This document shows, one piece after another, positions 5,101 through 64,000 of a DNA stretch of 64,000 bases (positions are counted from its first letter, which is position 1; each line of letters begins with the position of its first letter). A program made the translations under genes and the position numbers. The notes beneath the pieces were generated by a model that saw nothing but the letters and a program-made list of their open reading frames with translations, was not told the origin of the DNA and ran no database searches. Origin of the DNA: Zea mays. Taxonomy: Eukaryota > Streptophyta > Magnoliopsida > Poales > Poaceae. The stretch spans positions 116,035,982 to 116,099,981 of the forward strand of contig NC_050097.1 of the NCBI RefSeq assembly GCF_902167145.1. The letters are read 5' to 3'.

Positions 5101-5159
5101 CCACGAGCGACAACCTTACCTCTCGACTTATCCCCGAATGTGATGGATTTCTTACCAAT

Positions 5160-19664: not shown

Positions 19665-19687
19665 CATTATTCTCAAAGAGAATAATG
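19665..19687. repeat. Perfect 10-bp-arm hairpin present only in the 5' LTR
   Basis: CATTATTCTC and its exact reverse complement GAGAATAATG are separated by AAA. In the 3' LTR the corresponding text goes straight from GGATCC to TAATGTTTC, lacking 17 bases of this palindrome. A hairpin-promoted deletion during or after reverse transcription is the simplest explanation. Confidence 0.85.
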
Positions 19688-19770
19688 TTTCATAGACGAA
19701 GGACATTAACATTTAACATTTTATGTTGCCTTGTTCTTAATTCTAAGCATTTGAGAACAAGTCCCCAACA

Positions 19771-19782
19771 TTGGCGCCCACC
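19771..19782 (+). other. Primer-binding site of Tat element
   Basis: TTGGCGCCCACC follows the LTR end CCAACA directly. The TGGCGCCCACC core is the usual tRNA primer site type seen after Tat-lineage LTRs. The same motif follows the LTR at 36269. Confidence 0.75.
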
Positions 19783-19813
19783 TCCGGTGAACTCACTTCC
19801 ACTTTTTGAGCTG

Positions 19814-27524: not shown

Positions 27525-27691
27525 TAAACTATGAACTTGTGAAACTTTAATACTTTTTTCCTCCGAAGCAGGTTTCAAGATGGAGCTTCGTTCGATTCCG
27601 ACAAACAAGCTTCGGCGACGGTTAAAAATTTTGGCAGCAAAACAGTGCAAATAGCAGTAAATGCTGTGGTAACTTCACACCTACTCGTCTG

Positions 27692-38859: not shown

Positions 38860-41615
38860 CTACATGTCAAAGTAGCTCTGATCATCTGCATTTAGCCCAT
38901 CTATATCTCCATCACTGTCTATGACATCATCGTCCTACAATGTATAGAAGACAACATATATTCATATATTGCAGCAACATAAAATTGTATATGACAGGAA
39001 TTGAATAAAGAAACAAAATACGACATATGTGAGAGGAAGCATTAACAATACCTCAACCTTCAAGTTTGAAACAATAGCCTCAATAACTTCAAGATCACTA
39101 ACAATTGAACCAACCTTCTTATCTGAAATTCAAAGGTCAAACGATTACACATATATGATATATTAACAAACATTATAGTAATAAAATATTGAATAACGAA
39201 AAGAGATGCTTTATAACCTCTTCTTCCCGCAGCAATCCAATCTTTCATGCATATCAAAGCTTCAACCATTTCAGGGTCAAGGCGGCTACGGAAAGGATCA
39301 ACAACACGTCCACCAGCACTAAAAGCAGATTCAGAAGCTACAGTTGACACTTGAACAGCCAACAAATCACGAGCTATTGTTGAAAGAACAGGATACTCTT
39401 TTGTGTAGTTCTTCCACCATGCCAAGATATCAAACTGACCACTTAGCCTTAGAGGAGCATCTGCCATGTACTTCTCCAACTCATTCATATCATCAGCATC
39501 ATGCCCACTAGACTGGTATAAGTATTTGTCTAGTTCATTATTAACATCATCTGATCCACTTTCCACTAACTGGTCAGCTATATCTACATCCTTAGCATCA
39601 TTTAACCCACTTGTAGGCCTCAGAGTTGAAGGTGCAGCAGCAGCAGCATAGGACTAGTATAGTTTCTTGATGATATCAAGAAGTTCATCAACTTAAACTT
39701 GAGAGGAGATGCCATGAAATTTTCTCATGTAGAACTCTATAAGTCTTCTCTTGTATCTAGGATCTAGAAAACATGCAACAGCTAGTGCAGTGGATGATTT
39801 CTTCCAATACTTTTCAAACTTCCTACTCATAGACCTAGCCATTTCACTAATAGTGGTATCTTGACAAACAGACCATTCACCTAGTAAATTCTTTATCTCA
39901 CAAAATCCTCTGTAGAACAGATTTGCAGTGGGATATAATGTACCGGACAACAATTCAGTGAGATCAAAGAATTTCTTTAAGCATTGGAACAGTTTTAATG
40001 CCATAGCCCATTCACCAGGAGAAGGAGTGATTTTTTCATACCTATGACGATCTGACGATTTCAGCCTCATGAATGCATTCTTGTAGTACAAGGCATCTCG
40101 AAGCATCAAATATGTGGAATTCCATCTGGTTGACACATCTAGTGATAGGCCCTTGTTTGTATCGAGCCCACACTCAGTTGCTCGCTTCATGAGCTCCTCC
40201 CATTGCAATGGTGATCCTTTGACAACAAGAACTAGTAGTCGAATATTGTCAATTGTTGGTGTGATTACACTCAGCCCATCCCTAGCAACAAGATTTAGTA
40301 TGTGACAAGCACACCTCACATGGAAGAACAATCCATCACATATTAAAGAACTACCATTGGCCCTAAGATCAGAGATGATGTCCTTGACTGCAACTTCATT
40401 TGACGAGGCATTGTCCAAAGTTAGAGCAAAAATTCTCTTGTCAATATACCACTTCACCATAAGTTCAGTAAATGTCTCAGACAACTTTGTGCCAGTATGG
40501 TGACCCTTAACATGCACAAAGTTCACAATCCTTTTCTGCATAGACCAAGTATCATCTATCCAATGTATAGTGACACACATGTATGACTTGTTCTGATTTG
40601 AAGTCCACATGTCCATGGTGGCACTAAACCTACAAGGGACTGATTTGAAGTAGTCATACAGCCTTTCCTTTTCAGCTAAGAACATGTTCAGAATTTCCTT
40701 CCTAATGGTGACCCTAGATTTGATTGGAAAGCTAGGACGCAGGGATTTGATGAAGTCAACAAAAAACTCATGCTCAGATATATTAAATGGGTACTCATGC
40801 ATGACTATTGCTAAGTAAAACTTTCTCAAACTAACCTATTCATCATACTTGTATGGTACCACAACAGTGATGTCTTTCCCCCCATTTTTTTCAACTGCAA
40901 GTTGCTGCTGGCCTTTCACTATACTATGTGCCACCCTCAAATGTGTCCAAAATCCAGTTGTTCCATAATTACTCTCACATCGGCCCTTGTGCTTGCATCT
41001 CGGCCAGTTGCAATGAGCCCACAACTGAACATATGTCTTCCCATTATCCTCAATGACCAACTTCTTCTTGGTAAAGTATTGCCATACATCAGATGTGCAT
41101 TTCTTCTGCCTTTTTCCAGTAGGGACATCATCCTCAATATTGATGGTTTGTTCACTATTGCCGCCTCCATCCGCTGCAGCAGCAGCACTACCGCTGCCAC
41201 CTCCACTTGGCAAAGTATCCCTACCTACATCAGCTGGACCACAACCACTACCACAACCATCATTTGTTGTTGCTGCACCAGAACCACTACCACTGCCATC
41301 ATTTTGATGTAGACACAAACCACTAAGGTTTTGGCACATATTTTCTGACCTTGATCGCTTAGATCCTGACAACAATTCAATAGATGATTCTACCATTATA
41401 TACATGTACATACAGCTACCATTATATACTGAACACACACAACTACCAGTGTAGCAGAGCAGTGCTTTACCTGATGTTGGATTTGGTGTAGGAAGTGTGG
41501 TGCTATACACCACCACCGGCAATGGTGGATCCAGGATGAAGCTCTTGGCCTTGGATGCCGATGACGACGAGCCAACAGCAGGGCCATCGGCAGCAGCACC
41601 CCCAGTCGGTAGCAT
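38860..41615 (-). pseudogene. hAT transposase, four exons, three in-frame stops
   Basis: Predicted exons on the minus strand: 41615-41471, 41365-39218, 39122-39052 and 38934-38860. They form one continuous frame of 813 codons with GT-AG introns. Domains: Ser/Gly-rich N-terminus; BED-type zinc finger (VWQYFTKKK, then HCNWPRCKHKG and WTHLRVAH); RNase H-like catalytic core with FSATMDMWTS and FALTLDNASSN aspartates and a CACHILNL motif; C-terminal hAT dimerisation region (ILAWWKNYTKEYPVLSTIARDLLAV, ASESAFSAGGRVVDPFRSRL with the catalytic-type Glu); acidic tail. Stops are TAG (40836-40838), TAA (39693-39695) and TAG (39654-39656). No frameshifts, so inactivation is recent or by point mutation only. 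Confidence 0.88.
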
Positions 41616-45276: not shown

Positions 45277-47981
45277 TTAAGGGTAGAAGCGACGTAGCTG
45301 TTGGATGTTCCAAGCGTTGCTGTAGACCTCGCCTTGATCGTTGGCCAGCTTGTATGTTCCGGGCTTCAAAATCTTGGCGATGATGAACGACCCTTCCCAG
45401 GGAGGAGTAAGCTTGTGGCACCCTCGGGCGTCCTGTCGCAGCCGAAGTACCAAGTCTCCCACCTGGAAGCCTCGGGGCCGAACCATTCGGGCGTGGTAGC
45501 GTCGCAGAGACTGCTGATATCGTGCCAAGTGTAGTAAGGCCACGTCCCGAGCTTCTTCGAGCTGGTCCAGTGAGTCTTCTCGGCTGGTCTGGTTGCTTCG
45601 GTCGTCATACGCCTTTATCCTCGGGGAACCGTATTCTAAGTCTGTGGGTAAGATAGCCTTGGCCCCATAGACTAGAAAGAACGGCGAGAAACCAGTGGCT
45701 CGGGTCGGCGTCGTCCTTAGTCTCCAGACTACCGAGGGTAGCTCTTTCATCCACCGCTTGCCAAACTTGTTGAGGTCGTTGTAGATCCTCGGTTTAAGTC
45801 CATGCAAAATCATACCTTTGGCACGCTCCACCTGCCCATTCGTCATGGGGTGAGCTACGGCGGCCCAGTCCACACGGATGTGGTGGTCCTCGCAGAAGTC
45901 CAGGAACTTCTTCCCAGTGAACTGTGTGCCATTGTCGGTGATGATGGAGTTAGAGACCCCAAAGCGATGGATGATGTTCGTGAAGAACGCCACCGCCTGC
46001 TCAGACCTGATGCTGGTTAGAGGCCGGACCTTGATCCACTTGGAGAATTTGTCGATGGCGACCAGCAGGTGCGAGAAACCCCCGGGTGCCTTCTACAAGG
46101 GACCGACGAGGTCCAGACCCCACACAGCAAACGGCCAGGTGATGGGTATTGTCTGTAGGGCCTGAGCGGGCAGGTGCGTCTGTCTCGCGTAGAATTGACA
46201 CCCTTGGCAGGAGCGTACAATCCTAGTGGCGTCGGCCACCGCGGTTGGCCAGTAGAAGCCTGGTCGGAAGGCGTTCCCCATGAGGGCTCGAGGTGCTGCA
46301 TGGTGACCGCAAGCCCCCGAGTGTATTTCTTGCAATAGCTCCTGTCCTTCAGCGACGTATATGCATCGTTGGAAAATGCTTGAGGGGCTGCGGTGGTAGA
46401 GTTCCTTTTCATCACCCAATAAGACGAACGACTTGGCGCGTCGCGCCAATCGCCGAGCTTTGGCCTTGTCGAGGGGTAGCTCTCCTCGGAGGAGATATTC
46501 CAGGTACGGGGCCTGCCAGTTCGGGCTAGGCGTGACCCCATTCTGCTCTTCCTCGACGCGCAGTGCCTCACCCTCGGTGGCCGAGGATACCTCGGGCTCG
46601 GACGTGTCGTCGATCTTGACGGAGGGTTGATGTATGTCTCTGGAGAAGACGTCCGGGGGAACCGTTGTCCGCCCCGAGGCTATTTTAGCCAGCTCATCCG
46701 CAATCTCGTTGTACCGCCGAGCGATATGGTTGAGCTCAAGCTCGTAGAACTTGTCTTCCAGGCATCGAACTTCGTCGCAGTAGGCCTCCATCTTCCGGTC
46801 GTGGCAGTGGGAGTTCTTCATGACTTGGTCAATGACAAGCTGCGAGTCGCCACGAGCATCGAGGCGCCGAACCCCTAGCTCGATGGTGATGCGCAACCTG
46901 TTAACCAGAGCCTCGTACTCGGCCACATTGTTTGACGCCGGAAAATGGAGGCACAGCACGTAGCGGAGATGTTTCTCGAGGGGTGAGATGAAGAGCAGGA
47001 CAGCACCTGCTCCTGTTTTCATCAGCGACCCATCGAAGTACATGGTCCAAAGTTCCGGTTGGATCGAAGCTGTTGGCAGTTAGGTGTCGACCCATTCCGC
47101 TAGGAAATCCACCAAGACTTGGGATTTTATGGCCTTCCGAGGGACGAATGAGAGTGTTTCGCCCATGAGCTCCACTGCCCACTTTGCTATCCTACCCGAG
47201 GCCTCTCGGCACTGGATGATCTCCCCCAGGGGGAAGGATGACACCACAGTCACCGGATGAGACTCGAAGTAGTGTCGCAACTTTCGCCGTGTCAGAATTA
47301 CTGCATATAGTAGCTTCTGAATTTGCGGGTAGCGGATCTTGGTCTCGGATAGCACTTCACTGATGAAGTAGACCGGCCTCTGGACGAGCAGTGCATGCCC
47401 TTCTTCTTGTCTCTCGACTACGATCGCGGCGTTGACCACCTAAGTGGTTGCGGCTACGTAGATCAAGAGGGCTTCTCCCACAGTGGGGGGCACCAAGATG
47501 GGCACATTTGTAAGGAGTGCCTTTAAGTTTCCGAGGGCTTCCTTGGCCTCGGGGGTCCAAGTGAAGCGCTCGGTCTTCCTTAAGAGGCGGTACAGGGGTA
47601 ATGCTTTCTCGCCGAGGCGCGAGATGAAGCGGCTCAGAGCTGCAAGGCATCCCATGACCCTCTATACTCCTTTCAAATCTTTGATAGGCCCCATGTTGGT
47701 GATGGCTGCGATTTTCTCCGGGTTGGCCTCAATGCCTCGCTCGAAGACGATGAACCCCAGGAGCATGCCTCGGGGGACTCCGAAGACACACTTCTCGGGA
47801 TTGAGCTTCACGCCCTTCGCTCTCAGACACTTGAATGTCGTTTCAAGGTCAGAGAGGAGGTCAGGGGCTTTCCTCGTCTTGACAACGATGTCATCGACGT
47901 AAGCCTCGACCGTTCGGCCAATGTGCTCTCCGAACACGTGGTTCATGCACCTTTGGTATGTCGCACCTGCATTCCTCAAAC
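45277..47981 (-). pseudogene. pol: Huck-like pol, second part (RT end, RH, aRH, INT)
   Basis: The minus-strand frame begins inside RT right after the Tekay insertion: FGLRNAGATYQRCMNHVF, then AYVDDIVVKTR (catalytic YVDD) and CVFGVPRGMLLGFIV. It continues through a first RNase H (IYVAATT, PVYFISEVLSETKIRYPQIQK), a second RNase H (WTMYFDGSLMKTGAGAVL, NNVAEYEALV, GDSQLVIDQV, NEIADELAKIASG with its acidic residue kept), the integrase zinc finger, WGLDLVGPL, ITDNGTQF and NGQVERAKG (DDE residues all present), ending RRFYP and a stop at 45277. Stops: 47662-47664 (TAG), 47440-47442 (TAG), 47080-47082 (TAA), 46093-46095 (TAG). No frameshift is seen, so decay is by point mutation. Confidence 0.92.
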
Positions 47982-47986
47982 CAAAT

Positions 47987-50900
47987 TGTAACACCCCTGG
48001 TGTTACTGTAACTAAAACTTGAGCATGGCATCATAAGCATTGGCATTGCATATGTTTGACACACCTAGAGTGCATTCACTAGGCAAAAATTTCAAACAAG
48101 TTGTATTGTTTAATGTTTTGCAAATAGGACCCTGGATAGGAAGCTTTACCCTAAATAGGGATTAAAGGGGTAAAACTTAACCCAAGTTAAGAAAACCTAA
48201 AGACTTTAGGGTAAAAGTCATAAAATGACCCCAAAAATAAACTTGAATCACCTTTATACCCCTAAGATACCAGAAACCCTAATTGGAACCCTGGAAAACC
48301 CTAAAACTAAACCCTAGGGGCCTATGTGCAAAATTAGTCCACTTTTGGGCTAAAGTGCAAAAACCAAGCCAAATAAGTATTTTAAGTCATTTGGTTCACA
48401 AATATGTGGACTTGAAAGCCAAACCCTAAGTTTTGGACTCATTTGCAAAAAGGACCTCAATTTTAATTCCTATGCTAAGTCTGAAATCAGGGTTATAGGC
48501 CCAACTTTGGGGCTGTGTAGCTTTCAAAATAATGAGAATTCATATTAGGTGACCACAACAAGTTTGTAGCCCAATTATAGGAGAACAACTTTGTTTAAGG
48601 ATTCAAGCCATGTTCTTATAAGAAATGTGGAGAAAATCTCAACCCAAGTTGGACTGTCAGGCTGTTATGGTCTGAATTTTCAGACTGACAGTGACATTGG
48701 ATCATCTTTGGAAACAGTTTATGACTAATCTAGTAAGAATTTGCCCATGGCTGCTGTACCAAAGATGAAGATGGTATAATAGACAACAACTTTGCTGCAG
48801 AACCTCGGATAGGTTGCCATGGAAATTTGAGAGAAAATCAAGCTCAAACTATGGCTGTCAGGCGACTGAATCAAGTTTTAGCCATGGTACAGTGCTCTGT
48901 TGAAGATCAGACCGCCAGCGTCAAAAATCTCACCGCCGACGACCTCTTCGCCGGGATTCGTGCCGCGGGCGTGTGGAGTTCGCTCACCATGAAAAGATCT
49001 AGTCACGGATGTGTATGAACTACTGTGGCCTCGCTGTTCCCTGCCCCTCGCACCGGCGACGTGGTCGTATGGCCGTCATCGGAGTTGTCGTGCTTCACCA
49101 CGGTTGTGCCACGCTCCGAGCTTTTCACCACGTCGTCACTAGCCACACCAGCTCAGCGGTAACCGCCGTAGCTCCTCAACCGGTGATCACCGGAGGAAGC
49201 GCCACGGTGAAGGCCACCTATCCCTTGCTCCAGTATCCCTGTCCCCTCCGGCCGCCAGCACAACCTTGCGAAATTGGACACCACCGTCGATGGGATCTAT
49301 AAATTGAGCCTCCCCTTGGCTTCGCTATGTATTCCACCAGCTACTGCACCCACCTACATCCCAAACCCCCCACTAGAGAACACTAATTTCGGATTCTCCC
49401 CAAACCTGTTCGAATACACCGCGAAGAACACCTCGCCGCGGCCAGCGCAAATCAGGTCCGATACTATCATCCTCAGTCTTGTTATAACATTCTCATGTGC
49501 CCTTGATGCTCTCCAAACCATCCAATTGAACTAGACCGCCATGAATCGACGGGAACACATTCATCTGCCCGCAAGGTCCACGGTCACTGCGGCCAGAGCA
49601 AACCTAGTAGCCATTCGTGAAATTGAATGAGGGGAAATACTCGGGAGGGGTTCAATTCGGTGAAAGCCGCTCGAGAGCGCCAGTCTTTGCATAAATTGGC
49701 CTGTACACGAGCTCGCCGGAGCTCTGCACAACGTTGCTCGCCGTGAGGGACGTATTTGGGGAAGAAGCGAAGTTCTAGGGACCTCGACGTAAGGTGTCAG
49801 TGACTCTTAGATAGTCTGTAGAATGTTTTGCAGATTAGTTAAGATCTCGAGGGCTTTTCCGCAAGATCGCCAAGGCGTGGGCGCGCGCGCGTTTTGCCCT
49901 GGACCTGGGCCGTCTGGGCCAGAACCGGCCCAGCTCTATTTGATCCTTTTCTTTTTCTTTTTCCGAAAGACTTTGGAAATCTGTTAAAAATGGTAGAAAA
50001 ATGGTAAAATTATGAAATCAATTTTCCTAGGCTTGTTATTTTTCCTAGAATTTAATAAAAATAGTTTTGTGATTTTTAGTGGAAATAAGGAATTTTAGGG
50101 CATTTAAAATAGTTTAAGATAGTAGTTCTAGATTTTTAGAAAATAAATGGTAATCCCAAAATTACCCAAACTTTTTGTATAAGCTCTACACATTAATTAG
50201 AAGCCATAGGTAGAGTAGGGTTTGATTTGGACTTTGTTTGACACCTAAACCCAAAACCACCCCCTGCCTTATGAACTCCTTTACCGACTCCGGAAACCCT
50301 AAGTTCTCGGAGTTCCGTGAAGGAAAGTTGTATTCAAGACTTAGTCAATAAATTTTTATTATCTTTGCATCCTCATGAGCATCCCATGGCATCCATTCTT
50401 ATAAATATATATGGTGATGTTAGAACGTGAAGAAGAGATAGAAGTCACCGAAGACAGGACACCACCACCTTCGGATTCGCAAGCAGGCAACTGCTTCTAC
50501 TTCGATATTTGTGGATCCGAACCCGAATCACCTGTAAACGAAGGCAAGCCCCGGTGCATTTGCCACCTTCCTTGATGTTTTAAAAATCTTTCTCACTTGA
50601 TTGCTGCATTAGGTGATAGGAGTTGCTTGATAAAACCATTCCTGCATTACCTTCCTTGATCTTGATTACCCTCCTTGAAATCCTGTTTTTACAAAAAGGT
50701 TTTACTATGCTTAGCCTTGCTTTAGAAAACAAAATGTTTTGTTTTTACAAAATATGATATGGCAAAGGTGGGTGGGATGTTTTCGAAAATAAAACTTGAT
50801 GGTGAATCCATCATGGCCGTGATGGATTCAACATCGGAAAAGATGTACCTCTGCCAGGTACCAAGTTTTTGGGTTAAAAAGATTAAGCTGAGACCGGGCG

Positions 50901-52019
50901 GGTGACTTGCACGAGAAGAGAGTCTCGGTGTAGTGTCTCCGTCTGAGTCGATTAAGGACCTTGTCGATGTAGGCTTGATGATCGAGGACCCTTTAACTGG
51001 TCACATGCCTCGTCATGGGTAAGCCTTGCCTCGGGCAGACTAAGGACAGAATAAGATAACACGAAATGGGCGTGGAGCGGTGGCGAGAGTAGCGTGTACC
51101 CTCCATGGCAAGAGGCTGGACGGTGGTGTATCTGTGCTCTCGGTTTGCGTGAACCTGATCTGGTCTTAAGAACCCCGGTGGCGGGTTGACATATGCAAGG
51201 GTTAAGTGCTACATATGTCGTGTGATTGGAGATCCTCAGCTGAGTATAATCGATTCGGATCGCCGTACCTTCGGGTTATGAAGACTTGGTCACTGACCTA
51301 CACGTAGCATTCCACTAAAGATGATGGGTTTTTGTTAAGAAATTGGCTAGTGCAGGACCAGTGATTGAACTAGGGTAGAAAGAACTCTAGTTACAGGTAA
51401 CTCTACTTAACTTGACAAATAAAATTGGATTTTTAAGGATCCACTTTAGTAAGCATTTCTACAAAACAGAGTCTTTGATTATTGAAAAGCCTTACCTTGA
51501 CTCCCATATAACCAGCATACCCTTGAGAGTCTTTTCTTTAGTCGGGTAAGACTTGCTGAGTAATTCCAAACTCAGGGTTTATCCCTTCGTTGTTTTTAGG
51601 TGAGGAAGTAGCAGATTTCTGCTGCTTCTGTGCCAAGGTGGTTCCCAAAGAAGAAAAACAAGACTGAAGTGCGGGAGGACTCGGTCCTCCACATAGGTTC
51701 TTTTGCTTATAACTTATCGGGAGGAGTATGTGCCTCCCTTGGTTTGTATAATATTACTACTCAGCACTCGCCTTTTTAGTTCTAGTCTGTAATAAAATAA
51801 CTTAAGCTTGCTTTTAAAATAAATGTAAGTTATGTCATCGCTTCCGCATTTCTTTATCTCCGATGTTCTGTAATGTCTACAAGACGGGTGAAATGTTCCT
51901 GGTAAGTAAGGAAAGATACCGAACTTGTCAAGTGACTTAGGAACATCTACAGGGTGTCTGATGTTTGTTAGACAAGGACAACTGTAGGTGGGCCTAATTA
52001 CTTGGGAGGTTCCGTCACA
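47987..52019 (+). repeat. 5' LTR of Tekay-type element (4033 bp)
   Basis: Starts TGTAACACCCCTGG, ends TTCCGTCACA. The 5' third is AT-rich; 48850-49800 is GC-rich around the TATA box; the rest is a long AT-rich downstream part with short nonconserved ORFs. It is related over its 3' 1.5 kb to the inverted solo LTR at 16103. Confidence 0.95.
49298..49304 (+). promoter_or_regulatory. TATA box of Tekay 5' LTR
   Basis: TATAAAT in context GGGATCTATAAATTGAGCC. An RNA start near 49330 would give a U3 of about 1.34 kb and leave about 2.7 kb of LTR in the leader. The same box is at 58960-58966 in the 3' LTR. Confidence 0.7.
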
Positions 52020-52021
52020 GC

Positions 52022-52033
52022 TGGTATCGGAGC
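52022..52033 (+). other. Primer-binding site (initiator tRNA-Met type)
   Basis: TGGTATCGGAGC, two bases after the LTR end, matches the plant initiator-Met site TGGTATCAGAGC with one mismatch. Confidence 0.85.
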
Positions 52034-52256
52034 GTAGCCCTTCTTTGCAGATATTATGAGGCATCTTCAAAAGGATTTTCAAAAGTCTTACCTAAAAACT
52101 CTTTTCTCTTCTTACCTAAGTATTCTGAAGAGTCTATCTTAAAGACCAGATAGGAAGAGTGTAATGTATAGAAGGTTGAATCGACTAAGGTTGATTCTGT
52201 ACTTACACATGCATCATGCTAAGAATTATGCTAATAACATTTTCCCCCTTAAAAAG

Positions 52257-52841
52257 ATGCCGCCACGCACAAGGCTAACGGCACGCAAGTCAACGGGACC
52301 GATTGGAGTGCCTCGGCATCAACTGGCTCCCCGACATGAAAGCAGTAGCAGTGGAAGTAATCACCCCATCGGAGATCTTGAAGCTCGAGTGAGTCGACTT
52401 CAAGCGGCGCTTCAACACAGGACCGATGCTTGGGTCGCCGACGGAGATAGAATCAATGAACTAAGAAGGGACATCCGTCACCTGCAGGATCAGCTTGCTG
52501 ATCGAGACTTAGCACTTGACTGGGCAGTACAGTCTCGTTTGCTAGCATGCGCTAAGGAAGCAAGGGCTCAGGCCCGAATTAAAGAACTTAGCTCAACTGT
52601 CGACAACCTGCAGGTCTACTGCAATACGTTGCATGAGGAAGTCCATGTGCTATACTCACAATTACACCCTAGTGTGCCTGCACACCCTGCTGAGGCAGAA
52701 GCCGGACCCTCTCACGTTGCGGGACGCGCGCTGGGTGGGGAGTTAGACCTTTTTGAGCCCCCTCCTTCTTTGAGGTTGGTTGACGTCTGGACTCCCACAC
52801 CTGACGATGAGGCCGCCAAGAGTAATGGAAAGCAGGATTAA
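52257..52841 (+). CDS. Upstream ORF with histone H3 tail-like N-terminus and coiled coil
   Basis: The ORF encodes 194 residues. The ATG at 52257 is chosen because the protein sense begins there (MPPRTRLTARKSTG); the frame is open 31 codons further 5' with unlikely text. Residues 4-24 align with histone H3 residues 2-21: RT..TARKSTG and then PR.QLA, 14 identities with one inserted residue, including the equivalent of Lys9-Ser10. Residues 40-136 form a heptad-rich, charged coiled coil (LEARVSRLQAAL, INELRRDIRHLQDQLADRD, RIKELSSTVDNLQ). The C-terminus is Pro/Glu-rich and acidic. No Gag, zinc knuckle or enzyme motif. It precedes Gag-Pol by 183 bp in another frame, on the same presumptive RNA. I do not recognise a named family; a role in chromatin targeting or mark mimicry is inference. 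Confidence 0.8.
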   Translation: MPPRTRLTARKSTGPIGVPRHQLAPRHESSSSGSNHPIGDLEARVSRLQAALQHRTDAWVADGDRINELRRDIRHLQDQLADRDLALDWAVQSRLLACAKEARAQARIKELSSTVDNLQVYCNTLHEEVHVLYSQLHPSVPAHPAEAEAGPSHVAGRALGGELDLFEPPPSLRLVDVWTPTPDDEAAKSNGKQD

Positions 52842-53024
52842 TGGTGTAATAGAAGTAGAGTAGTGTATTGTAGGGTGTATTGTTGTATAATAGGTTGAAC
52901 TTTTGTATAATGGGTAATGTATCCTGTTATGTAATATCGAGTCTGTATCATTACTTTTTATAGTAATGTAAAATGGAAGGTTTCTCTGGCACATTATGTT
53001 TACTTCAAATGTTTTTTGCCACAG
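52842..53024 (+). other. Intercistronic region with a splice-acceptor-like end
   Basis: The 183 bp between the upstream ORF and Gag are T-rich and end with TTTTTTGCCACAG immediately before the Gag ATG, an excellent plant 3' splice-site context. If used, a spliced RNA could start Gag-Pol at its first codon without translating the upstream ORF. No donor was assigned. Confidence 0.45.
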
Positions 53025-56000
53025 ATGCCGACCAGGACTCGAGGACAGGACGCAGCCGGAACTTCTGGGGGAAGGGATGTTACCCCAAACCCACCTCCGG
53101 TTCCTCCCACGTTAGCCGAGGCGATTGCCGCCTTGGTGAATGCCACCGCAGACAATACCCGCTTCCTTAGGGAAATGGCGGGTCAACAGCAATTCCAGCA
53201 GCAGGCAGGAAGGGGTTATCCGCAAGGCCCCCGTGAAACTACTTATTTGGATTTCTCGGAAACCCGTCCACCCCTATTCGTCAAAGCTGAAGATCCCCTA
53301 GAAGCTGATGAGTGGATACGAGTTATTGAACAAAAGTTTGGTCTTCTCCGTTGCTCAGAGACGCAGAAGCCGTTGTTCGCAGCACAACAACTACGTGGTC
53401 CTGCCAGTACCTGGTGGGGAAATTTTGTGGCTATTCAACCTGTCAACCATCAAGTTACCTGGGAAGAGTTTAAAGCAGCCTTCCGTGAGCACTACATACC
53501 CGAAGGAGTGCTGCATATAAAACAGGAGGAATTTATGAAGTTAAAACAAGGAGGAGATACTATCAATCAGTATCTCAACAAGTTTAATCACCTGTCGCAG
53601 TATGCCATTGACCAGGTGAATACTGATTTAAAGAAGAAGAACTGTTTTATGCGGGGTTTAAATGATTGGCTACAGAGAAAGATGGCCACATGCATAGATC
53701 TCACGTATGGAAAGGCTGTCAGCACAGCCTTATCTGTTGAAGCAAAATACGCAAGTTCTGGGAAGAATAAGGGATTTGGTGGTGAGAGGCCTAATCAGGG
53801 CCAGGCGAAGAAGCAACGGTTTGTGATCCGGCCTGCAAGCCAAAATCGCACTTTTTCTCGTCCACCCTCATTCCCCTTCAAACAGCCAATCATTATTCGC
53901 CCCAACAATACCCCCACTACCCCAAATCAGCCGGGTGCCCCAGGCACTCGATTCCCTGCCTTGCCTAGTTCTTCAACTGGGTGTTTTAATTGCGGCAAGT
54001 CGGGACATTTCATCAAAGACTGCCCATATCCTAAGCAAAATCAATCAAATGCTCCGCAAGGATCTGGGAGATCAGCTCAGCCCAAAGGAAATACTGTGGG
54101 GAAAAATACAAAGAAGACGGGGCGTGTATATTACACCCAAGTGGCCACTACACCGGAAGGAGAGCCGGTGATGATGGGTACGTTTCCCGTGGCCAGTCAC
54201 CCTGCAATTATTCTTTTTGATTCTGGTGCTTCGCATACATTCATTAGCAAGAAATTTGTGGAGCAACATCATATTGCATGCCATGAATCAAAAGAGGGAT
54301 TTAAAATTCATTCACCTGGGGGACACATTTTTACTAGAGAAGTGGCCTATGAAGTGCCAGTAACAATGGCCGGACGGAACTTTCCTGCTAACATGATTGT
54401 TCTAAAAGGCCAGGATATAGATGTAATTTTGGGTATGAATTGGCTAACCCAACACAAGGCAATTCTCAACACTGAACTCAGAACCGTCAAGTTGAGCTAT
54501 AATCAAGAAGAGATTCTTTTGTCTCTCCCCGTAACCAATCCAGCCAAAGCTTCTGGTAGAGTATATGAAGCCATTGTACCGGAGATTGAGAACATTCCGG
54601 TAGTATGTGAGTTTCCAGATGTATTTCCGGAAGATTTGCCTGGACTGCCCCCTGAAAGAGATGTAGAATTCGTAATTGAGCTAAAGCCCGGTACGGCTCC
54701 CATCTCCCGAAGATCGTACCGTATGCCCCCTAATGAGTTGGCGGAATTGAAGATTCAATTACAAGATCTACTGAATAAGGGATTCATCCGGCCAAGCTCG
54801 TCCCCATGGGGTTGCCCCGCCATTTTTGTTAAGAAGAAGGATCAAACCTTGCGAATGTGCGTGGATTATCGACCCCTGAATGAGGTCACTATTAAGAATA
54901 AGTACCCTCTTCCAAGGATCGACATCTTATTTGATCAACTGACTGGGGCGAGGGTATTTTCCAAAATTGATCTCAGGTCGGGCTATCATCAAATCCGTAT
55001 TCGGCCCGAGGATATACCGAAGACCGTGTTTACTACGCGGTATGGATTGTTTGAATACCTGGTAATGTCTTTCGGGCTCACAAATGCTCCTGCCCACTTT
55101 ACCTATTTGATGAACTCGGTGTTCATGCCCGAGTTAGACAAGTTCGTGGTAGTCTTCATCGACGATATCTTGATATATTCTAAGAATGAAGAGGACCATG
55201 CTCAGCATTTACGGATTGTATTGACGCGCCTGAGGGAACATCAGCTATATGCCAAGTTCAGCAAGTGCGCGTTCTGGCTGGAGGAAATTCAATTTTTGGG
55301 GCACGTGTTATCGGCTAAAGGAATTGCGGTAGATCCTAGCAAGGTCAAAGATATTCTGGAGTGGAAACCCCCAACCACTGTTCACCAAGTCCGGAGTTTT
55401 CTTGGACTAGCTGGGTATTATCGCAGATTCATACCAGATTTTTCTAAGCTTGTGAAGCCAATCACAAGTTTATTGAAGAATGACAGTAAGTTCAATTGGT
55501 CTTCTAAGTGTAATGAAGCCTTTGAGCAATTGAAGACACTATTGACCACTGCTCCGGTATTGGCTCAACCGGACATCACTAAGCCTTTTGATGTATATTG
55601 TGATGCATCTGGCAGTGGGCTCGGCTGTGTACTGATACAAGAGGGCCGAGTAATTGCGTATGCTTCAAGGCAATTGCGCCGACATGAGGAGCATTACCCA
55701 ACTCATGATCTGGAGCTAGCTGCTGTGGTTCATGCCCTGAAGATTTGGCGTCACTATCTGCTGGGAAATATCTGTCACATATATACAGATCATAAAAGTT
55801 TGAAGTACATTTTCACCCAGTCAGAATTGAATATGAGGCAAAGACGATGGCTTGAGCTTATTAAAGACTATGAACTAGAGATCCATTATCACCCAGGCAA
55901 AGCCAATGTGGTGGCAGATGCACTGAGTCGTAAGACTTCCTGTCACTGTCTTATGGTGAAGACCTTCGAGAACACTTTATGTCAAGAGATGGAAAAGCTA

Positions 56001-57494
56001 AACCTGGGGATAATCCAACAAGGGACTCTGAATCAGCTAAAGCTTGAGTCAATCATTTTGCAAAGGATAATTGATGCTCAAAAAGATAATCTGGGTATGA
56101 AGCACATACGAGAGAAGATAAGGGCTGGAGTAGCCAAATGTTTCAAGGAAGACAATCAAGGTGTAATATGGTTTAAAAACCGCATAGTAGTGCCAAAGAA
56201 CGAAGAACTCCGCCAGCAAATTCTTGATGAAGCACATCTTAGTCGTTATTCTATTCATCCCGGAAGCACTAAGATGTACCAAGACTTAAAGCAACATTAC
56301 TGGTGGACAAAAATGAAGATCGAAATTGCACGCTATGTGGCTAAGTGTGACACTTGCAGACGTGTCAAGGCCATACACATGAAAACTGCTGGTCCATTAC
56401 AGTCGCTACCAATACCAACATGGAAATGGGAAGACATCAGTATGGACTTTATTGTGGGATTGCCCAGGACCGCAAAAGGATATGACTCTATTTGGGTGAT
56501 TGTTGATCGGCTTACCAAGATTGCTCACTTTCTACCAGTCAAGACATATTATCCGGTACTTACCTATGCGGAGTTATACATTGCCCGTATTCTCAGTCTG
56601 CATGGTGTTCCGAAGACCATTGTGTCGGATCGTGGACCACAATTTGTATCCAAATTCTGGGAAGAACTTCATAAATCCCTAGGTACTAAGTTACTCCACA
56701 GTTCGGCCTATCATCCTCAAACCAGTGGACAGACTGAGAGAGTGAACCAAATACTTGAAGATATGCTGCGGGCATGTGTTCTGGACTTCTCACCGAAATG
56801 GGATGAATGTTTGCCTTTGGTGGAGTTTTCATATAATAATAGCTATCAAGAAAGTATCAAGATGGCACCCTTTGAAGCTTTATATGGACGTCGATGTCGT
56901 ACTCCGCTAAATTGGTCTGAACCTGGTGAAAGGTGCTTCTTTAGACCTGATATGGTGAAAGAGGCCGAGGATAAGGTTCAGAAAATTATTCATAATATGA
57001 AGAAGGCACAAGCTCGTCAGAAGAGTTATGCAGACACACGGCGAATGCCCTTATATTTCCTGGAAGGAGACTATGTTTACCTGAAAGTCTCACCAATGAA
57101 AGGAATATCGCGTTTTGGGGTTAAAGGGAAGCTTGCACCCAGGTACATTGGTCCATTCCTGGTACTTGAGCAATGTGGACCAGTGGCATACCGACTTCAA
57201 CTACCCGAAACCTTGTCTGCTGTGCACAATGTGTTCCATGTGTCACAATTGAAGAAGTGTCTTCGGGTTCCCGATCGAACCATTGATGTAACAGATGTTG
57301 TCCTTGAACCAGACTTGACATACTCTGAGCACCCTATACGAGTCTTGGATCAAAAGGACAGGGTTACCCGGAGAAACACTCTCAAGTTTTATAAGATACA
57401 GTGGAACCAGCATTCTGAAGATGAAGCTACTTGGGAAACTCAAGACTTCTTGAATAAGAATTTCCCAAGCTTTCTAGCCTCATGTAATTTGTAA
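53025..57494 (+). CDS. gag-pol: Gag-Pol polyprotein of Tekay-type chromovirus
   Basis: 1489 residues without stop or frameshift; the ATG at 53025 starts MPTRTRGQD. Order: Gag capsid region (about 90-200, [26 protein letters not shown]); CCHC zinc knuckle [15 protein letters not shown] (about 320); protease [10 protein letters not shown] (Asp 399); RT with [23 protein letters not shown] and FIDDILIYS (Asp pair 713-714); RNase [12 protein letters not shown] (Asp 860) with [10 protein letters not shown]; integrase zinc finger ([10 protein letters not shown]) and catalytic D1141, D1202 and E1238 (D-35-E); GPY/F-type segment ([18 protein letters not shown]); a chromodomain-like end ([23 protein letters not shown]..., EATWE). 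The complete enzyme set is present, so the element could be autonomous. Gag and Pol are fused in one frame, as usual in Tekay-type elements. Confidence 0.97.
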
Positions 57495-57636
57495 AATGTA
57501 TCTAGTTATTGTAATAAAGGAGTGAACCCCCACACCACCCCTGCCTTGTACCAGAATTAAGGAAATAAAAGTATTTCGCGTTTCCTTTTCCATTACTTAC
57601 CCTAGGACTTTTAATCTCGGGACGAGATTCTTTTAT
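57495..57636 (+). other. 3' untranslated spacer of Tekay element
   Basis: 142 bp between the Gag-Pol stop and the polypurine tract. It contains gggacgagattctttt, a phrase that commonly precedes the tract in plant chromoviruses. No ORF. Confidence 0.6.
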
Positions 57637-57647
57637 GGGGGGAAGGA
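57637..57647 (+). other. Polypurine tract of Tekay element
   Basis: GGGGGGAAGGA directly abuts the 3' LTR start TGTAACACCC. Confidence 0.9.
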
Positions 57648-60600
57648 TGTAACACCCCTGGTGTTACTGTAACTAAAACTTGAGCATGGCATCATAATCA
57701 TTGGCATTGCATATGTTTGACACACCTAGAGTGCATTCACTAGGCAAAAATTTCAAACAAGTTGTATTGTTTTAATGTTTTGCAAATAGGACCCTAGATA
57801 GGAAGCTTTACCCTAAATAGGGATTAAAGGGGTAAAACTTAACCCAAGTTAAGAAAACCTAAAGACTTTAGGGTAAAAGTCATAAAATGACCCCAAAAAT
57901 AAACTTGAATCACCTTTATACCCCTAAGATACCAGAAACCCTAATTGGAACCCTGGAAAACCCTAAAACTAAACCCTAGGGGCCTATGTGCAAAATTAGT
58001 CCACTTTTGGGCTAAAGTGCAAAAACCAAGCCAAATAAGTATTTTAAGTCATTTGGTTCACAAATATGTGGACTTGAAAGCCAAACCCTAAGTTTTGGAC
58101 TCATTTGCAAAAAGGACCTCAATTTTAATTCCTATGCTAAGTCTGAAATCAGGGTTATAGGCCCAACTTTGGGGCTGTGTAGCTTTCAAAATAATGAGAA
58201 TTCATATTAGGTGACCACAACAAGTTTGTAGCCCAATTATAGGAGAACAACTTTGTTTAAGGATTCAAGCCATGTTCTTATAAGAAATGTGGAGAAAATC
58301 TCAACCCAAGTTGGACTATCAGGCTGTTATGGTCTGAATTTTCAGACTGACAGTGACATTGGATCATCTTTGGAAACAGTTTATGACTAATCTAGTAAGA
58401 ATTTGCCCATGGCTGTTGTACCAAAGATGAAGATGGTATAATAGACAACAACTTTGCTGCAGAACCTCGGATAGGTTGCCATGGAAATTTGAGAGAAAAT
58501 CAAGCTCAAACTATGGCTGTCAGGCGACTGAATCAAGTTTTAGCCATGGTACAGTGCTCTGTTGAAGATCAGACCGCCAGCGTCAAAAATCTCACCGCCG
58601 ACGACCTCTTCGTCGGGATTCGTGCCGCGGGCGTGTGGAGTTCGCTCACCATGAAAAGATCTAGTCACGGATGTGTATGAACTACTGTGGCCTCGCTGTT
58701 CCCTGCCCCTCGCACCGGCGACGTGGCCGTATGGCCGTCATCGGAGTTGCCGTGCTTCACCATGGTTGTGCCACGCTCCGAGCTTTTCACCACGTCGTCA
58801 CTAGCCGCACCAGCTCACCGGTAACTGCCGTAGCTCCTCAACCGGTGATCACCGGAGGAAGCGCCACGGTGAAGACCACCTATCCCTTGCTCCAGTATCC
58901 CTGTCCCCTCCGGCCGCCAGCACAACCTTGCGAAATTGGACACCACCGTCGATGGGATCTATAAATTGAGCCTCCCCTTGGCTTCGCTATGTATTCCACC
59001 AGCTACTGCACCCACCTACATCCCAAACCCCCCACTAGAGAACACTAATTTCGGATTCTCCCCAAACCTGTTCGAATACACCGCGAAGAACACCTCGCCG
59101 CGGCCAGCGCAAATCAGGTCTGATACTGTCATCCTCAGTCTTGTTCTAACATTCTCATGTGCCCTTGATGCTCTCCAAACCATCCAATTGAACTAGACCG
59201 CCATGAATCGACGGGAACACATTCATCTGCCCGCAAGGTCCACGGTCACTGCGGCCAGAGCAAACCTAGTAGCCATTCGTGAAATTGAATGAGGGGAAAT
59301 ACTCGGGAGGGGTTCAATTCGGTGAAAGCCGCTCGAGAGCGCCAGTCTTTGCATAAATTGGCCTGTACACGAGCTCGCCGGAGCTCTGCACAACGTTGCT
59401 CGCCGTGAGGGACGTATTTGGGGAAGAAGCGAAGTTCTAGGGACCTCGGCGTAAGGTGTCAGTGACTCTTAGATAGTCTGTAGAACGTTTTGCAGATTAG
59501 TTAAGATCTCGAGGGCTTTTCCGCAAGATCGCCAAGGCGCGGGCGCGCGCGCGTTTTGCTCTGGACCTGGGCCGTTTGGGCCAGAACCGGCCCAGCTCTA
59601 TTTGATCCTTTTCTTTTTCTTTTTCCGAAAGACTTTGGAAATCTGTTAAAAATGGTAGAAAAATGGTAAAATTATGAAATCAATTTTCCTAGGCTTGTTA
59701 TTTTTCCTAGAATTTAATAAAAATAGTTTTGTGATTTTTAGTGGAAATAAGGAATTTTAGGGCATTTAAAATAGTTTAAGATAGTAGTTCTGGATTTTTA
59801 GAAAATAAATGGTAATCCCAAAATTACCCAAACTTTTTGTATAAGCTCTACACATTAATTAGAAGCCTTAGGTAGAGTTGGGTTTGATTTGGACTTTGTT
59901 TGACACCTAAACCCAAAACCACCCCCCTGCCCTATGAACTTTTTTACCGACTCCGGAAACCCTAAGTTCTCGGAGTTCCGTGAAGGAAAGTTGTATTCAA
60001 GACTTAGTCAATAAATTTTTATTATCTTTGCATCCTCATGAGCATCCCATGGCATCCATTCTTATACATATATATGGTGATGTTAGAACGTGAAGAAGAG
60101 ATAGAAGTCACCGAAGACAGGACACCACCACCTTCGGATTCGCAAGCAGGCAACTGCTTCTACTTTGATATTTGTGGATCCGAACCCGAATCACCTGTAA
60201 ACGAAGGCAAGCCCCGGTGCATTTGCCACCTTCCTTGATGTTTTAAAAATCTTTCTCACTTGATTGCTGCATTAGGTGATAGGAGTTGCTTGATAAAACC
60301 ATTCCTGCATTACCTTCCTTGATCTTGATTACCCTCCTTGAAATCCTGTTTTTACAAAAAGGTTTTACTATGCTTAGCCTTGCTTTAGAAAACAAAATGT
60401 TTTGTTTTTACAAAATATGATATGGCAAAGGTGGGTGGGATGTTTTCGAAAATAAAACTTGATGGTGAATCCATCATGGCCGTGATGGATTCAACATCGG
60501 AAAAGATGTACCTCTGCCAGGTACCAAGTTTTTGGGTTAAAAAGATTAAGCTGAGACCGGGCGGGTGACTTGCACGAGAAGAGAGTCTCGGTGTAGTGTC

Positions 60601-61684
60601 TCCGTCTGAGTCGATTAAGGACCTTGTCGATGTAGGCTTGATGATCGAGGACCCTTTAACTGGTCACATGCCTCGTCATGGGTAAGCCTTGCCTCGGGCA
60701 GACTAAGGCCAGAATAAGATAACACGAAATGGGCGTGGAGCGGTGGCGAGAGTAGCGTGTACCCTCCGTGGCAAGAGGCTGGACGGTGGTGTATCTGTGC
60801 TCTCGGTTTGCGTGAACCTGATCTGGTCTTAAGAACCCCGGTGGCGGGTTGACATATGCAAGGGTTAAGTGCTACATATGTCGTGTGATTGGAGATCCTC
60901 AGCTGAGTATAATCGATTCGGATCGCCGTACCTTCGCGGTTATGAAGACTTGGTCACTGACCTACACATAGCATTCCACTAAAGATGATGGGTTTTTGTT
61001 AAGAAATTGGCTAGTGCAGGACCAGTGATTGAACTAGGGTAGAAAGAACTCTAGTTACAGGTAACTCTACTTAACTTGACAAATAAAATTGGATTTTTAA
61101 GGATCCACTTTAGTAAGCATTTCTGCAAAACAGAGTCTTTGATTATTGAAAAGCCTTACCTTGACTCCCATATAACCAGCATACCCTTGAGAGTCTTTTC
61201 TTTAGTCGGGTAAGACTTGCTGAGTAATTCCATACTCAGGGTTTATCCCTTCGTTGTTTTTAGGTGAGGAAGTAGCAGATTTCTGCTGCTTCTGTGCCAA
61301 GGTGGTTCCCAAAGAAGAAAAACAAGACTGAAGTGCGGGAGGACTCGGTCCTCCACATAGGTTCTTTTGCTTATAACTTATCAGGAGGAGTCTGTGCCTC
61401 CCTTGGTTTGTATAATATTACTACTCAGCACTCGCCTTTTTAGTTCTGGTCTGTAATAAAATAACTTAAGCTTGCTTTTAAAATAAATGTAAGTTATGTA
61501 ATCGCTTCTGCATTTCTTTATCTCCGATGTTCTGTAATGTCTGCAAGACGGGTGAAACGTTCCTGGTAAGGTAAGGAAAGATACCGAACTTGTCAAGTGA
61601 CTTAGGAACATCTACAGGGTGTCTGATGTCTGTTAGACAAGGACAACTGTAGGTGGGCCTAATTACTTGGGAGGTTCCGTCACA
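57648..61684 (+). repeat. 3' LTR of Tekay-type element (4037 bp)
   Basis: Same ends as the 5' LTR. Differences are scattered substitutions, mostly transitions, plus a few single-base indels (for example an extra T near 57770 and an extra C near 60936). TATAAAT is at 58960-58966. Confidence 0.95.
58960..58966 (+). promoter_or_regulatory. TATA box of Tekay 3' LTR
   Basis: Copy of the 5' LTR box. From the 3' LTR it would fire rightward into the Huck-like element, antisense to that element's Gag-Pol. Confidence 0.6.
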
Positions 61685-61689
61685 CAAAT

Positions 61690-64000
61690 GGCATAGTAGT
61701 ATAACAATACATGCCAAAAGGTGTGATGAAAGAAGTCGCGAGCTGGTCGGACTCTTTCATCTTGATTTGGTGATAACCTGAATAGGCGTCGAGGAATGAC
61801 AGGGTTTTGCACCCAGCAGTGGAATCCACAATTTGATCGATGCGAGGCAAAGGGTAGGGAACCTTCAGACATGCTTTGTTTAGACAAGTGTAGTCTACGC
61901 ACATCCTCCACTTCCCACGTTTCTTCTTTACAAGCACAGGGTTAGCTAGCCATTCGGGATGGAATACCACTTTGATGAACCCTGCGGCCATCATCTTGTG
62001 GATCTCCTCGCCTATGGCCCTGCGCTTCTCTTCGTCAAAGCGGCGCAGGTGCTGCTTCACGGGTGGGGCTCCAGCTCGGATATCCAGCGAGTGCTCGGCG
62101 ACATCCCTTAGTATGCCCGGCATGTTCGAGGGACTCCACGCAAAAATTTCGGCATTTGCGCGGAGAAAGTCGATGAGCACTGTTTCCTATTTAGGGTCGA
62201 GCTCGGAGCCAATCTGGACCTTCTTGTCGGCGTCGTTGCTGGGGTCAAGAGGGACAGACTTAACCGCCTCAACTGGTTCGAAGTTGCCAGCGTGGCGCTT
62301 CGCATTAGGCACCTCCTTGGAGAGGCACTCTAGATCGGCGATAAGGACCTCGGACTCGGCGAGGGCCTCAGAGTACTCCACGCACTCCACGTCGCATTCG
62401 TACGCGTGTCGGTACGTGGATCCGACGGTGATGACCCTGTTGGGGCCTGGCATCTTGAGCTTGAGGTAGGTGTAGTTGGGGACGACCATGAACTTGGCGT
62501 AGCACGGTCTCCCCAGCACCGAGTGGTAGGTTCCTCGGAACCCGACCACCTCGAACGTGAGGGTTTCCTTTCGGAAGTTGGAGGGAGTTCCAAAGTAGAC
62601 GAGCAGATCGAGTTGTCCAAGGGGCAGGACGCGCTTCCCGGGGATGATCCCGTGAAAGGGCGTCGCACCAGCCCGGATCGTGGACAAATCGATCCCCAAG
62701 AGCCCGAGGGTCTCGGCGTAGATGATGTTGAGGCTGCTGCCCCCGTCCATGAGGACCTTGGTGAGCCTGGCGTTGCCGATGACGAGGTCGACGACGAGCG
62801 GGTACTTTCTTGGGCTCGGCACGCAGTCGGGGTGGTCGCCTTGGTCGAAGGTGATGGGCTTGTCGGACCAGTCTAGGTAGACTGGTGCCGCCACCTTTAC
62901 CGAGCAGACCTCCCGGCGCTCTTGCTTGTGGTGCCGAGCCGAGGCGTTCGCCACTTGCCCACCATAGATCATGAAACAGCCGTGGACCTCGGGGAACTCC
63001 TCTGCCTTATCGCCCTCCTTCTTGTTGTTGTCTTGGCCTTTGCCATCTCCCGCCGGGGACCCGACTTTATGGAAGTAGCACCGAAGCATGACGCATTCCT
63101 CAAGGGTGTGCTTGACGGGACCCTGGTGATAGGGGCACGACTCCTTGAGCATCTTGTCGAATAGGTTGGCCCCTCCGGGAGGCTTCCGAGGGTTCCTGTG
63201 CTCGGCAGCAGCGACAAGATCTGCGTCGGCGGTGTCACGCTTCGCTTGCGACTTCTTCTTGGCCTTCTTCTTTGTGCCACGCTGGGAGGACGCCTCGGGG
63301 ACGTCTTCCTGCTGGCGTCCCTGAGGCTGCTTGTCCTTCTGGAAGATGGCTTCGACCGCCTCCTGACCAGAGGCGAACTTGGTGGCGATGTCCATCAACT
63401 CGCTCGCCTTGGTGGGAGTCTTGCGACCCAGTTTGCTCACCAGGCCGCGGCAAGTGGTGCCGGCAAGGAATGCCCCAATGACATCTGAGTCAGTGATGTT
63501 GGGCAGCTCGGTGCGCTGCTTTGAAAACCGCCGGATGTACTCTTGCAGGGATTCCCAGGAGTTCCTAGGGTGCACATACGTGCCCTGGAAGTTTCCAGCG
63601 AAGGCCTTGACCAGGTCGTCCTAGTTGGAAATCTGCGCGGGAGGCAGATGCTCCAGCCAGGCTCGGGCAGCGTCGGAGAGGAACAGGGGGAGGTTGCGGA
63701 TGATGAGGTTGTCGTCGTCCGTTCCTCCCAGCTGGCAAGCCAGCCGGTAGTCCGCAAGCCACAACTCCGGCCTTGTTTCCCCCGAGTACTTGGCGATGGT
63801 AGTCGAGGCCCGGAACCGGGTCGGGAACGGCGCCCGTCGTATGGCCCGGCTGAAGGCTTGCGGACCCGGTGGTTCGGGCGAGGGGCTCTGATCCTCCTCG
63901 CTGTCGTAGCGTCCCCCACGCTTGGGGTGGTAGCCTCGGCGCACCTTCTCGTCGAGACGGGCTCGACGGTCGCGGCGGTGGTGCTCATTGCCGAGGCGAT
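61690..64000 (-). pseudogene. gag-pol: Huck-like Gag, protease and RT first part (partial at window edge)
   Basis: One minus-strand frame enters from the right edge (RARLDEKVRRGYHPKRGG) and runs to the Tekay insertion. Parts: Gag capsid region (RPELWLADYRLACQL, AARAWLEHLP, LQEYIRRFSKQRTELPNI, AFLAGTTCRGLVSKLG); Lys-rich linker; a cysteine/histidine motif CPYHQGPVKHTLEEC; protease LTKVLMDGGSSLNIIY (DGG instead of DTG or DSG); RT start (PVKQHLRRFDEEKRR, WLANPVLVKKKRGKWRMCVDYTCLN, YPLPRIDQIVDSTAG, DAYSGYHQIKM, TSFITPFGMYCYTTMPF). TAG stops lie at 63621-63623 and 62187-62189, both where Gln is expected. The 5' end of Gag and the 5' LTR are outside the window. Confidence 0.92.

Follow-up and report, generated by a model that had tools for sequence, protein, structure and literature searches.

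Accessory open reading frames on the 5' side of gag-pol are found in plant chromoviruses, and the passages drawn on here give them no established function (PMC3485330, PMC11728184). In the parts of Gao et al. (2012; PMC3485330) cited here, an extra ORF upstream of gag-pol, termed ORF0, is described for Retrosat2, RIRE3, RIRE8 and ZMsat2/Sorsat2/Brasat2. These Retrosat2-type elements resemble the maize element analysed below in being grass retrotransposons with an extra 5' ORF, and the LTRs of Retrosat2 likewise exceed 3 kb. Their ORF0 proteins are set apart by description: they are very divergent (7.6–90.2% identity) and have been modelled as hydrolases or other enzymes, and the Retrosat2 protein, for which a residue A271 is named, is longer than the 194 amino acids found here. 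A second group, the Tekay 5'aORF proteins, is reported from sunflower, maize, sorghum and rice in the passages of PMC11728184 that we use. Like our ORF0 these proteins stem from a 5' accessory ORF and contain long disordered parts, in some cases with a long helix, and they are predicted to be nuclear. The sunflower protein differs in its length of 402 amino acids, a comparison made by description, and for the maize and sorghum proteins a weak structural likeness to a DRBM-containing protein has been reported.

The feature that concerns us is the N-terminus of the maize ORF0, which resembles the tail of histone H3. The sequence-only reading of this DNA had known of no established description of such an arrangement. 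As regards the 5' ORFs this was too sweeping, since they are published as ORF0 and 5'aORF; as regards the histone-like tail it stands within the passages and term counts available. The words 'histone' and 'coiled' are absent from the text of PMC3485330, 'histone' from the searchable parts of PMC11728184 and PMC7264820, and 'mimic', 'Tekay' and 'ORF0' from those of PMC12786077. Among the listed titles and abstract openings of the open-licence literature, preprints excluded, no report of an H3-like tail in a retrotransposon protein was found. The closest relatives in kind are the H3K9-mimic motifs of non-histone proteins, in which, as in ORF0, an Arg-Lys pair lies in an ARKS-like short linear motif and use by H3K9 methyltransferases has been proposed or shown (PMC10611923, PMC9768651, in the passages cited). 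Those motifs comprise four residues and derive from ten-residue segments, whereas ORF0 shares 14 of about 21 tail residues, at the N-terminus of a transposon protein. The geminivirus protein TrAP is an inhibitor that binds KYP, an H3K9 methyltransferase. The pocket of KYP holds H3 residues 1–15, and according to the authors TrAP could occupy this histone-binding cavity (PMC4606454). TrAP differs in being a DNA-virus protein, and the passages of that paper do not describe any likeness to the H3 tail; by analogy it may serve as a precedent for the target, KYP, rather than for mimicry.

The element and its surroundings

The window, by which we mean the whole stretch of 64,000 nucleotides of Zea mays DNA that was analysed (contig NC_050097.1, 116035982-116099981), contains on its plus strand a complete LTR retrotransposon (47987–61684) that carries ORF0 and is bounded by LTRs of about 4.0 kb. 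Its parts are as follows.

47982..47986 and 61685-61689, no strand: left and right copies of the target-site duplication CAAAT
47987..52019, plus strand: 5' LTR of 4033 bp, starting TGTAACACCCC and ending GTTCCGTCACA, 99.0% identical to the 3' LTR
51902..53024, plus strand: predicted intron with a GTAAG-type donor in the LTR and an acceptor ending CACAG before the gag ATG, which would excise the primer-binding site and ORF0
52022..52033, plus strand: primer-binding site TGGTATCGGAGC, read from the sequence
52257..52841, plus strand: ORF0, encoding a 194-amino-acid accessory protein, between primer-binding site and gag
53025..57494, plus strand: gag-pol, in the same frame as ORF0, with three further in-frame stops intervening
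57354..57476, plus strand: chromodomain-like end of the integrase (PF00385, E 6.1e-05, 23.3 bits, below the cut-off of 25.1)
57637..57647, plus strand: polypurine tract, read from the sequence
57648..61684, plus strand: 3' LTR of 4037 bp

The gag-pol frame, from ATG 53025 to 57494, comprises gag, zinc knuckle, protease, reverse transcriptase, RNase H, integrase and the weak chromodomain by Pfam, and the primer-binding site at 52022 is presumably of the initiator Met tRNA type. Gag-pol order, long LTRs, primer-binding site, polypurine tract, target-site duplication and a selected 5' ORF are all present and fit a Tekay-type Ty3/gypsy chromovirus, the lineage name being that of the sequence-only reading, with which the layout agrees. 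The two LTRs differ at 41 of the compared sites (31 transitions and 10 transversions; K2P 0.0103), which at the common rate of 1.3e-8 per site and year corresponds to about 0.4 million years; the element is a young Ty3 chromovirus. Searches of the 2.18-Gb Zea mays genome with three ORF0 queries returned 5,159 to 5,244 first-look candidates each, and since in each search all 150 candidates that were scored matched, the ORF0 family is very large (thousands of first-look candidates, a part of them confirmed).

A splice-like pair of sites flanks ORF0, with a donor region (51899-51910) near the 3' end of the LTR and an acceptor region (53012-53024) that reads TTTGCC[A/T]CAG and abuts the gag ATG. 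An alignment of the donor region was obtained for 68 of 72 loci; both subfamilies have GTAAG in their commonest forms, and at the donor the window copy differs from the form most frequent in its own subfamily. The acceptor region could be aligned in 70 of 72, with CAG before the ATG in 34/35 and 21/24 loci among the forms printed. The predicted splicing would drop the primer-binding site and ORF0 and so yield a separate gag-pol mRNA. Elsewhere in the window, ORFs at 39060-41615 on the minus strand resemble a hAT-type transposase with a BED-like finger, and further retrotransposon-like pol or accessory frames were seen by eye at 19637-23767 (plus), 25464-27650 (minus), 45277-47043 (minus) and 61680-63575 (minus); these frames suggest nested repeats around the element.

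ORF0 as a gene and as a protein

The ORF at 52257-52841 on the plus strand translates into 194 residues beginning MPPRTRLTARKSTGPIGVPRHQLA. Across 30 copies from the same genome, diversity at codon positions 1, 2 and 3 is 0.045, 0.048 and 0.056 in the 93 nt upstream of ATG 52257, without periodicity, and 0.011, 0.006 and 0.092 downstream from it. Because codon periodicity begins at 52257, translation most likely starts there, and the ATG chosen in the sequence-only reading is the likely start of ORF0. The upstream ATGs at 52164 and 52209 were ruled out as starts, the upstream frame being shifted or stopped in 10 of the 30 copies. The frame is likewise bounded in a third, P0020-like subfamily, where it is open for 195 residues in all ten copies fetched and hence opens about one codon before M1. 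Gag (53025) starts with MPTRTR and ORF0 (52257) with MPPRTR, either a common start motif or chance.

The strength of constraint was gauged in 41 copies (30 top rows and 12 from the low end of the 150 scored, one of these 42 being without a usable gag match), with pN/pS of 0.08 for ORF0, 0.04 for its H3-like block and 0.12 for gag codons 1-400. The copies had been picked by ORF0 protein score, with gag of the same copies as the control; such a choice lowers pN and affects comparisons between subfamilies less. A synonymous difference of 17% beside a nonsynonymous one of 1.2% cannot be produced by choosing in this way among neutral copies. Constraint on ORF0 is about as strong as that on gag, and neutral decay is ruled out by pN/pS and by the divergence between subfamilies. 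The analysis shows that this very high-copy Ty3 chromovirus has, in ORF0, an accessory gene that is under selection and is most likely translated from ATG 52257. No known domain was recognised in it: a Pfam scan gave 11 weak hits, none above its own cut-off, a comparison with viral structures gave no match (best E 4.0), and pattern searches of IMG/VR and of the GTDB genome contigs returned 38 and 2 candidates, respectively, none of which was confirmed as a relative.

The protein is laid out in the following segments.

52266..52334, plus strand: H3-tail-like N-terminal block, residues 4-26, in which the equivalent of H3 Lys9 is K11 (codon 52287-52289)
52365..52664, plus strand: single long helix or coiled coil, residues 37-136, from the AlphaFold model and the heptad scan
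52617..52670, plus strand: end of the coil, residues 121-138, the ORF0 stretch best conserved between subfamilies
52737..52802, plus strand: conserved C-terminal motif, residues 161-182, of low confidence in the model

An AlphaFold model based on a 25-sequence alignment (mean pLDDT 72.6, pTM 0.37) leaves residues 1-36 and the C-terminus mostly at low confidence and places a helix at 37-136, where the ten-residue blocks from 41 to 140 have pLDDT values of 87-98 and those from 41 to 130 values of 96-98. In the best of seven registers of a heptad scan, 78% of the a/d positions are hydrophobic, Ala counted. The long coiled coil that had been proposed behind the tail is borne out by these predictions, which describe a disordered tail followed by a coiled coil and lead one to expect an oligomer with several tails; such an arrangement, in which the tail is also basic, would suit multivalent display. 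Between subfamilies, the end of the coil, YCNTLHEEVHVLYSQLHP, is better conserved than the H3-like block, and the C-terminal motif around GGELDLF about equally well.

The H3-like tail and its conservation

Residues 4-24 of ORF0 match residues 2-21 of H3 at 14 positions with one inserted residue, a count first made by eye and equalled by a maximum-identity count; the identities are R4 T5, T8 A9 R10 K11 S12 T13 G14, P19 R20 and Q22 L23 A24. The Smith-Waterman score against the H3 tail is 54. When the same 40 residues were shuffled 100,000 times, two of the resulting sequences reached this score, and for a typed family-majority peptide 1 of 100,000 composition-matched shuffles scored as high. The window contains, on both strands together, 485 stretches of 40 open codons that begin with an ATG; the best unrelated one scores 36, and the second high scorer, at 52, starts from the upstream ATG 52209 and includes the same block. 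When 177,635 distinct PDB sequences were searched with a profile of 25 ORF0 proteins, H3 tails ranked first, N-terminus to N-terminus, at E 0.16. In single-sequence searches of the PDB unrelated chains came out on top (PEX14 at E 0.033 and, in a second search, cytochrome c at E 0.13 and desmoplakin at E 0.66), with H3-type chains at E 0.76-0.87, so that the H3 match is suggestive and not significant by database standards. Identity is clear for about 21 residues only, and beyond them there is one weak extended alignment (Cse4, residues 4-101, E 0.87).

Of the lysines in H3 1-23 (K4, K9, K14, K18 and K23), only K9 is paired with a lysine in the window copy, where Arg, His and Arg stand opposite K4, K18 and K23 and PIGV opposite the GKA stretch around K14. 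Over 240 protein sequences, Arg occupies the K4 position in 231 and Lys in 5, and at the K23 position there are 229 with Arg and 1 with Lys; residue 7, which lies opposite H3 Gln5, is Lys in 180. The retention of K9 as the sole lysine in the window copy fits a lookalike centred on K9 and speaks against reading of the K4 type by PHD domains. The protein set started from 243 rows, namely the best 120 of 1,689 matches, the best 120 of 1,851 (113 of them new), all nine longer relatives and the window's own sequence, and as best matches of longer lists these rows are dominated by close relatives. P0235, P0242 and P0243 were removed for the 240-row counts and two more for the trees of 238. P0076 and P0020 have counterparts in the genome of the window to which they are 100% and 96% identical, so that many of the metagenome matches are probably maize-type DNA. 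The search for longer relatives of ORF0 gave nine matches, each of which is a member of the ORF0 family, one of its longer frames or a fusion. In P0242 and P0243 an ORF0 start is fused in frame to protease/reverse transcriptase or to integrase, probably as a result of deletion, and P0235 is a reverse-transcriptase-bearing frame in which the first part of the tail is scrambled.

Within the one genome three ORF0 subfamilies could be told apart, P0001-like (42 copies), P0076-like (30) and P0020-like (10, picked among the best rows without stops). Overall pS between them is 0.64-0.76, near saturation, where Jukes-Cantor dN/dS is unreliable, and pS and pN are therefore given instead; block pN is 0.07-0.11. 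Between the P0001-like and P0076-like copies pS is 0.735, and pN is 0.145 in ORF0, 0.074 in its block, 0.020 in residues 121-138 and 0.127 in gag 1-400; between the P0020-like copies and the others pS is 0.64-0.72 and the block has a pN of about 0.10. All three subfamilies agree in the majority residue at 20 of the 23 block positions. The exceptions are residues 7 (L/K/R), 12 (S/S/H) and 20 (R/R/S or C), so that 12 of the 14 H3-identical sites are shared, as are 8 of the 9 block sites unlike H3. K11 is Lys in 238 of the 240 proteins, the window included, and in 42/42, 30/30 and 10/10 copies of the three subfamilies; it is encoded by AAG in the first two (with one AAA) and by AAA in the third. 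The P0020-like subfamily has His at the Ser10 equivalent in 10/10 copies, and its Arg17 equivalent is Ser in six and Cys in four. Inside the block, diversity at codon positions 1, 2 and 3 is 0.016, 0.005 and 0.178 (30 copies); the third positions are the variable ones, as expected for conservation of protein and not of nucleotides. Purifying selection acts on the protein sequence of the H3-like block. Of the three findings that the sequence-only reading would have taken as refutation, two, neutral evolution of the block and disuse of ATG 52257, were looked for and did not appear; as to the third, absence of the block from related elements, those relatives close enough to be found keep it.

Whether selection favours likeness to H3 as such is a separate matter, and neither the protein tree nor the comparison with the third subfamily showed preferential conservation of the H3-identical block sites. 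On the 238-protein tree, roughly corrected for codon mutability, change relative to expectation is 1.05 on terminal and 0.96 on internal branches for the H3-identical sites, and 0.86 and 0.53 for the rest of the block, in an analysis that uses mutability weights of our own rough choice and omits sites where the window codon differs from the majority residue, including site 7, the most variable non-matching one. Of random 14-site sets drawn from the 22 used, 80% are as slow as the H3-identical set or slower. Uncorrected and with site 7 included, the H3-identical sites show 8.4 terminal and 3.3 internal changes per site against 5.8 and 1.8 elsewhere in the block. The comparison of P0001-like with P0076-like copies points in the opposite direction, with pN of 0.038 for H3-identical and 0.128 for other block sites, mainly through site 7; against the third subfamily the H3-identical sites again have the higher pN (0.120 vs 0.085 and 0.122 vs 0.064). 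On the protein tree the block has 62 internal and 170 terminal changes and the coil 299 and 571 (Fisher p 0.028), a weak difference and one of several regions compared.

Residues PIGV, H21 and P25 are conserved despite being unlike H3; in the 240 rows H21 is His in 236 and L23 is Leu in all 240, and position 12 (Ser12 in the window) is His in 79. The four residues around K11 read ARKS in 107 rows, ARKH in 60 and TRKS in 21. The motif given in the cited part of PMC10611923 for the H3K9 writer EHMT2, a mammalian enzyme, is [GCSAKLN]RK[TGQSVMALNKER]; this mammalian consensus is present in 108 of the 240 rows, and the window copy passes. The tail is conserved as a sequence of its own; the K9 lysine and some of its surroundings apart, the features most strictly retained are not those that make it resemble H3.

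Readings of the tail

The tail combines extended identity to H3, including R8-K9, with a position in a segment predicted to be disordered. We propose that it may be recognised by host proteins whose normal ligand is the region of H3 around Lys9, either H3K9 methyltransferases of the SUVH4/KYP kind or readers of K9; that the predicted coiled coil would make ORF0 an oligomer carrying several tails; and that, during expression of the element, this oligomer could function within the silencing pathway as a decoy or an adaptor. The 14 in-register identities, the rarity of the score among shuffles (2 in 100,000), the top rank in the PDB profile search, the retention of K11 and the low pN of the block argue for a decoy or adaptor in the H3K9 pathway, which we regard as a good and testable hypothesis, still somewhat short of an even chance of being right. 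More tentative is its sharper form, in which ORF0 would be an oligomeric K9-only lookalike of the H3 tail, with the other lysines of H3 1-23 replaced, and would serve, long under strong selection, as a self-encoded anti-silencing decoy that diverts the H3K9 methylation machinery.

A K9-centred mimic and a coincidence carry roughly equal weight. For methylation of the tail, recruitment of readers and titration of silencing enzymes, all raised in the sequence-only reading, the evidence points both ways: K9 is retained, yet the H3-identical residues enjoy no preference and one subfamily has lost two of them. ORF0 could well be a working accessory protein whose basic tail and coil serve nuclear import, binding of RNA or Gag, or the handling of particles and RNA, with its likeness to H3 fortuitous, and we give this somewhat less than an even chance. 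The H3-identical sites are no better kept than the other block sites on the protein tree and against the third subfamily, which moreover lacks the equivalents of Ser10 and Arg17; conservation is stronger at the end of the coil than in the block; the RTR part may be common to the basic N-termini of the element, as Gag also starts with MPTRTR; the E-value in the PDB is 0.16; and as the match was picked from a large scan, a two-in-100,000 resemblance would be expected somewhere. What a coincidence accounts for less readily is that two matched stretches lie in register at the very N-terminus, that the score is far above those of composition-matched shuffles and that the K9 residue is among the least variable sites. 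Capture of the tail from a host H3 gene, followed by drift that retained what the element needed, would explain why the two blocks match N-terminus to N-terminus, but clear identity ends after about 21 residues, with the weak Cse4 extension beyond, and we consider such an origin improbable. That the block might be conserved as a nucleotide sequence, as a leader, packaging or splicing signal, is suggested by its location just 3' of the primer-binding site and within the predicted intron; the codon periodicity rules this out, the third positions being variable (0.178 against 0.016 and 0.005) and pS between subfamilies being near saturation, and its probability is negligible.

A further proposal of the sequence-only reading was that ORF0 could recruit the element's own integrase; methylated at K11, it would do so through the chromodomain and target insertion or assembly. 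The integrase does terminate in a chromodomain-like segment, as had been noticed, albeit one that scores below the Pfam cut-off, and its best relatives in the PDB are chromodomain proteins (yeast Chd1 at E 0.0056 and Clr4 at E 0.018). In the alignment with Clr4, RW-LNY faces QW-NQH, so that only the central Trp is retained and the next aromatic residue stands opposite His; these two positions we take to be those of the methyl-lysine cage. Plant chromodomains of the CHD_II type, which seed-plant Tekay elements have, are without Y24 and usually without Y48, according to the part of PMC3350952 cited here. The apparently incomplete cage and the CHD_II type make reading of methylated K11 by the integrase unlikely, and recruitment of the element's own integrase is accordingly a proposal that we hardly expect to hold.

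For one of the 5' accessory ORFs of plant chromoviruses it is now shown that it is a selected gene with a fixed start, and its tail suggests a possible link to the H3K9 silencing pathway. Should the mimicry prove false, ORF0 would still be a protein gene under constraint, in which the last part of the coil and the C-terminal motif are further sites of interest. Should it prove true, ORF0 would be a histone-tail decoy encoded by a retrotransposon and directed against the very system that silences the element.
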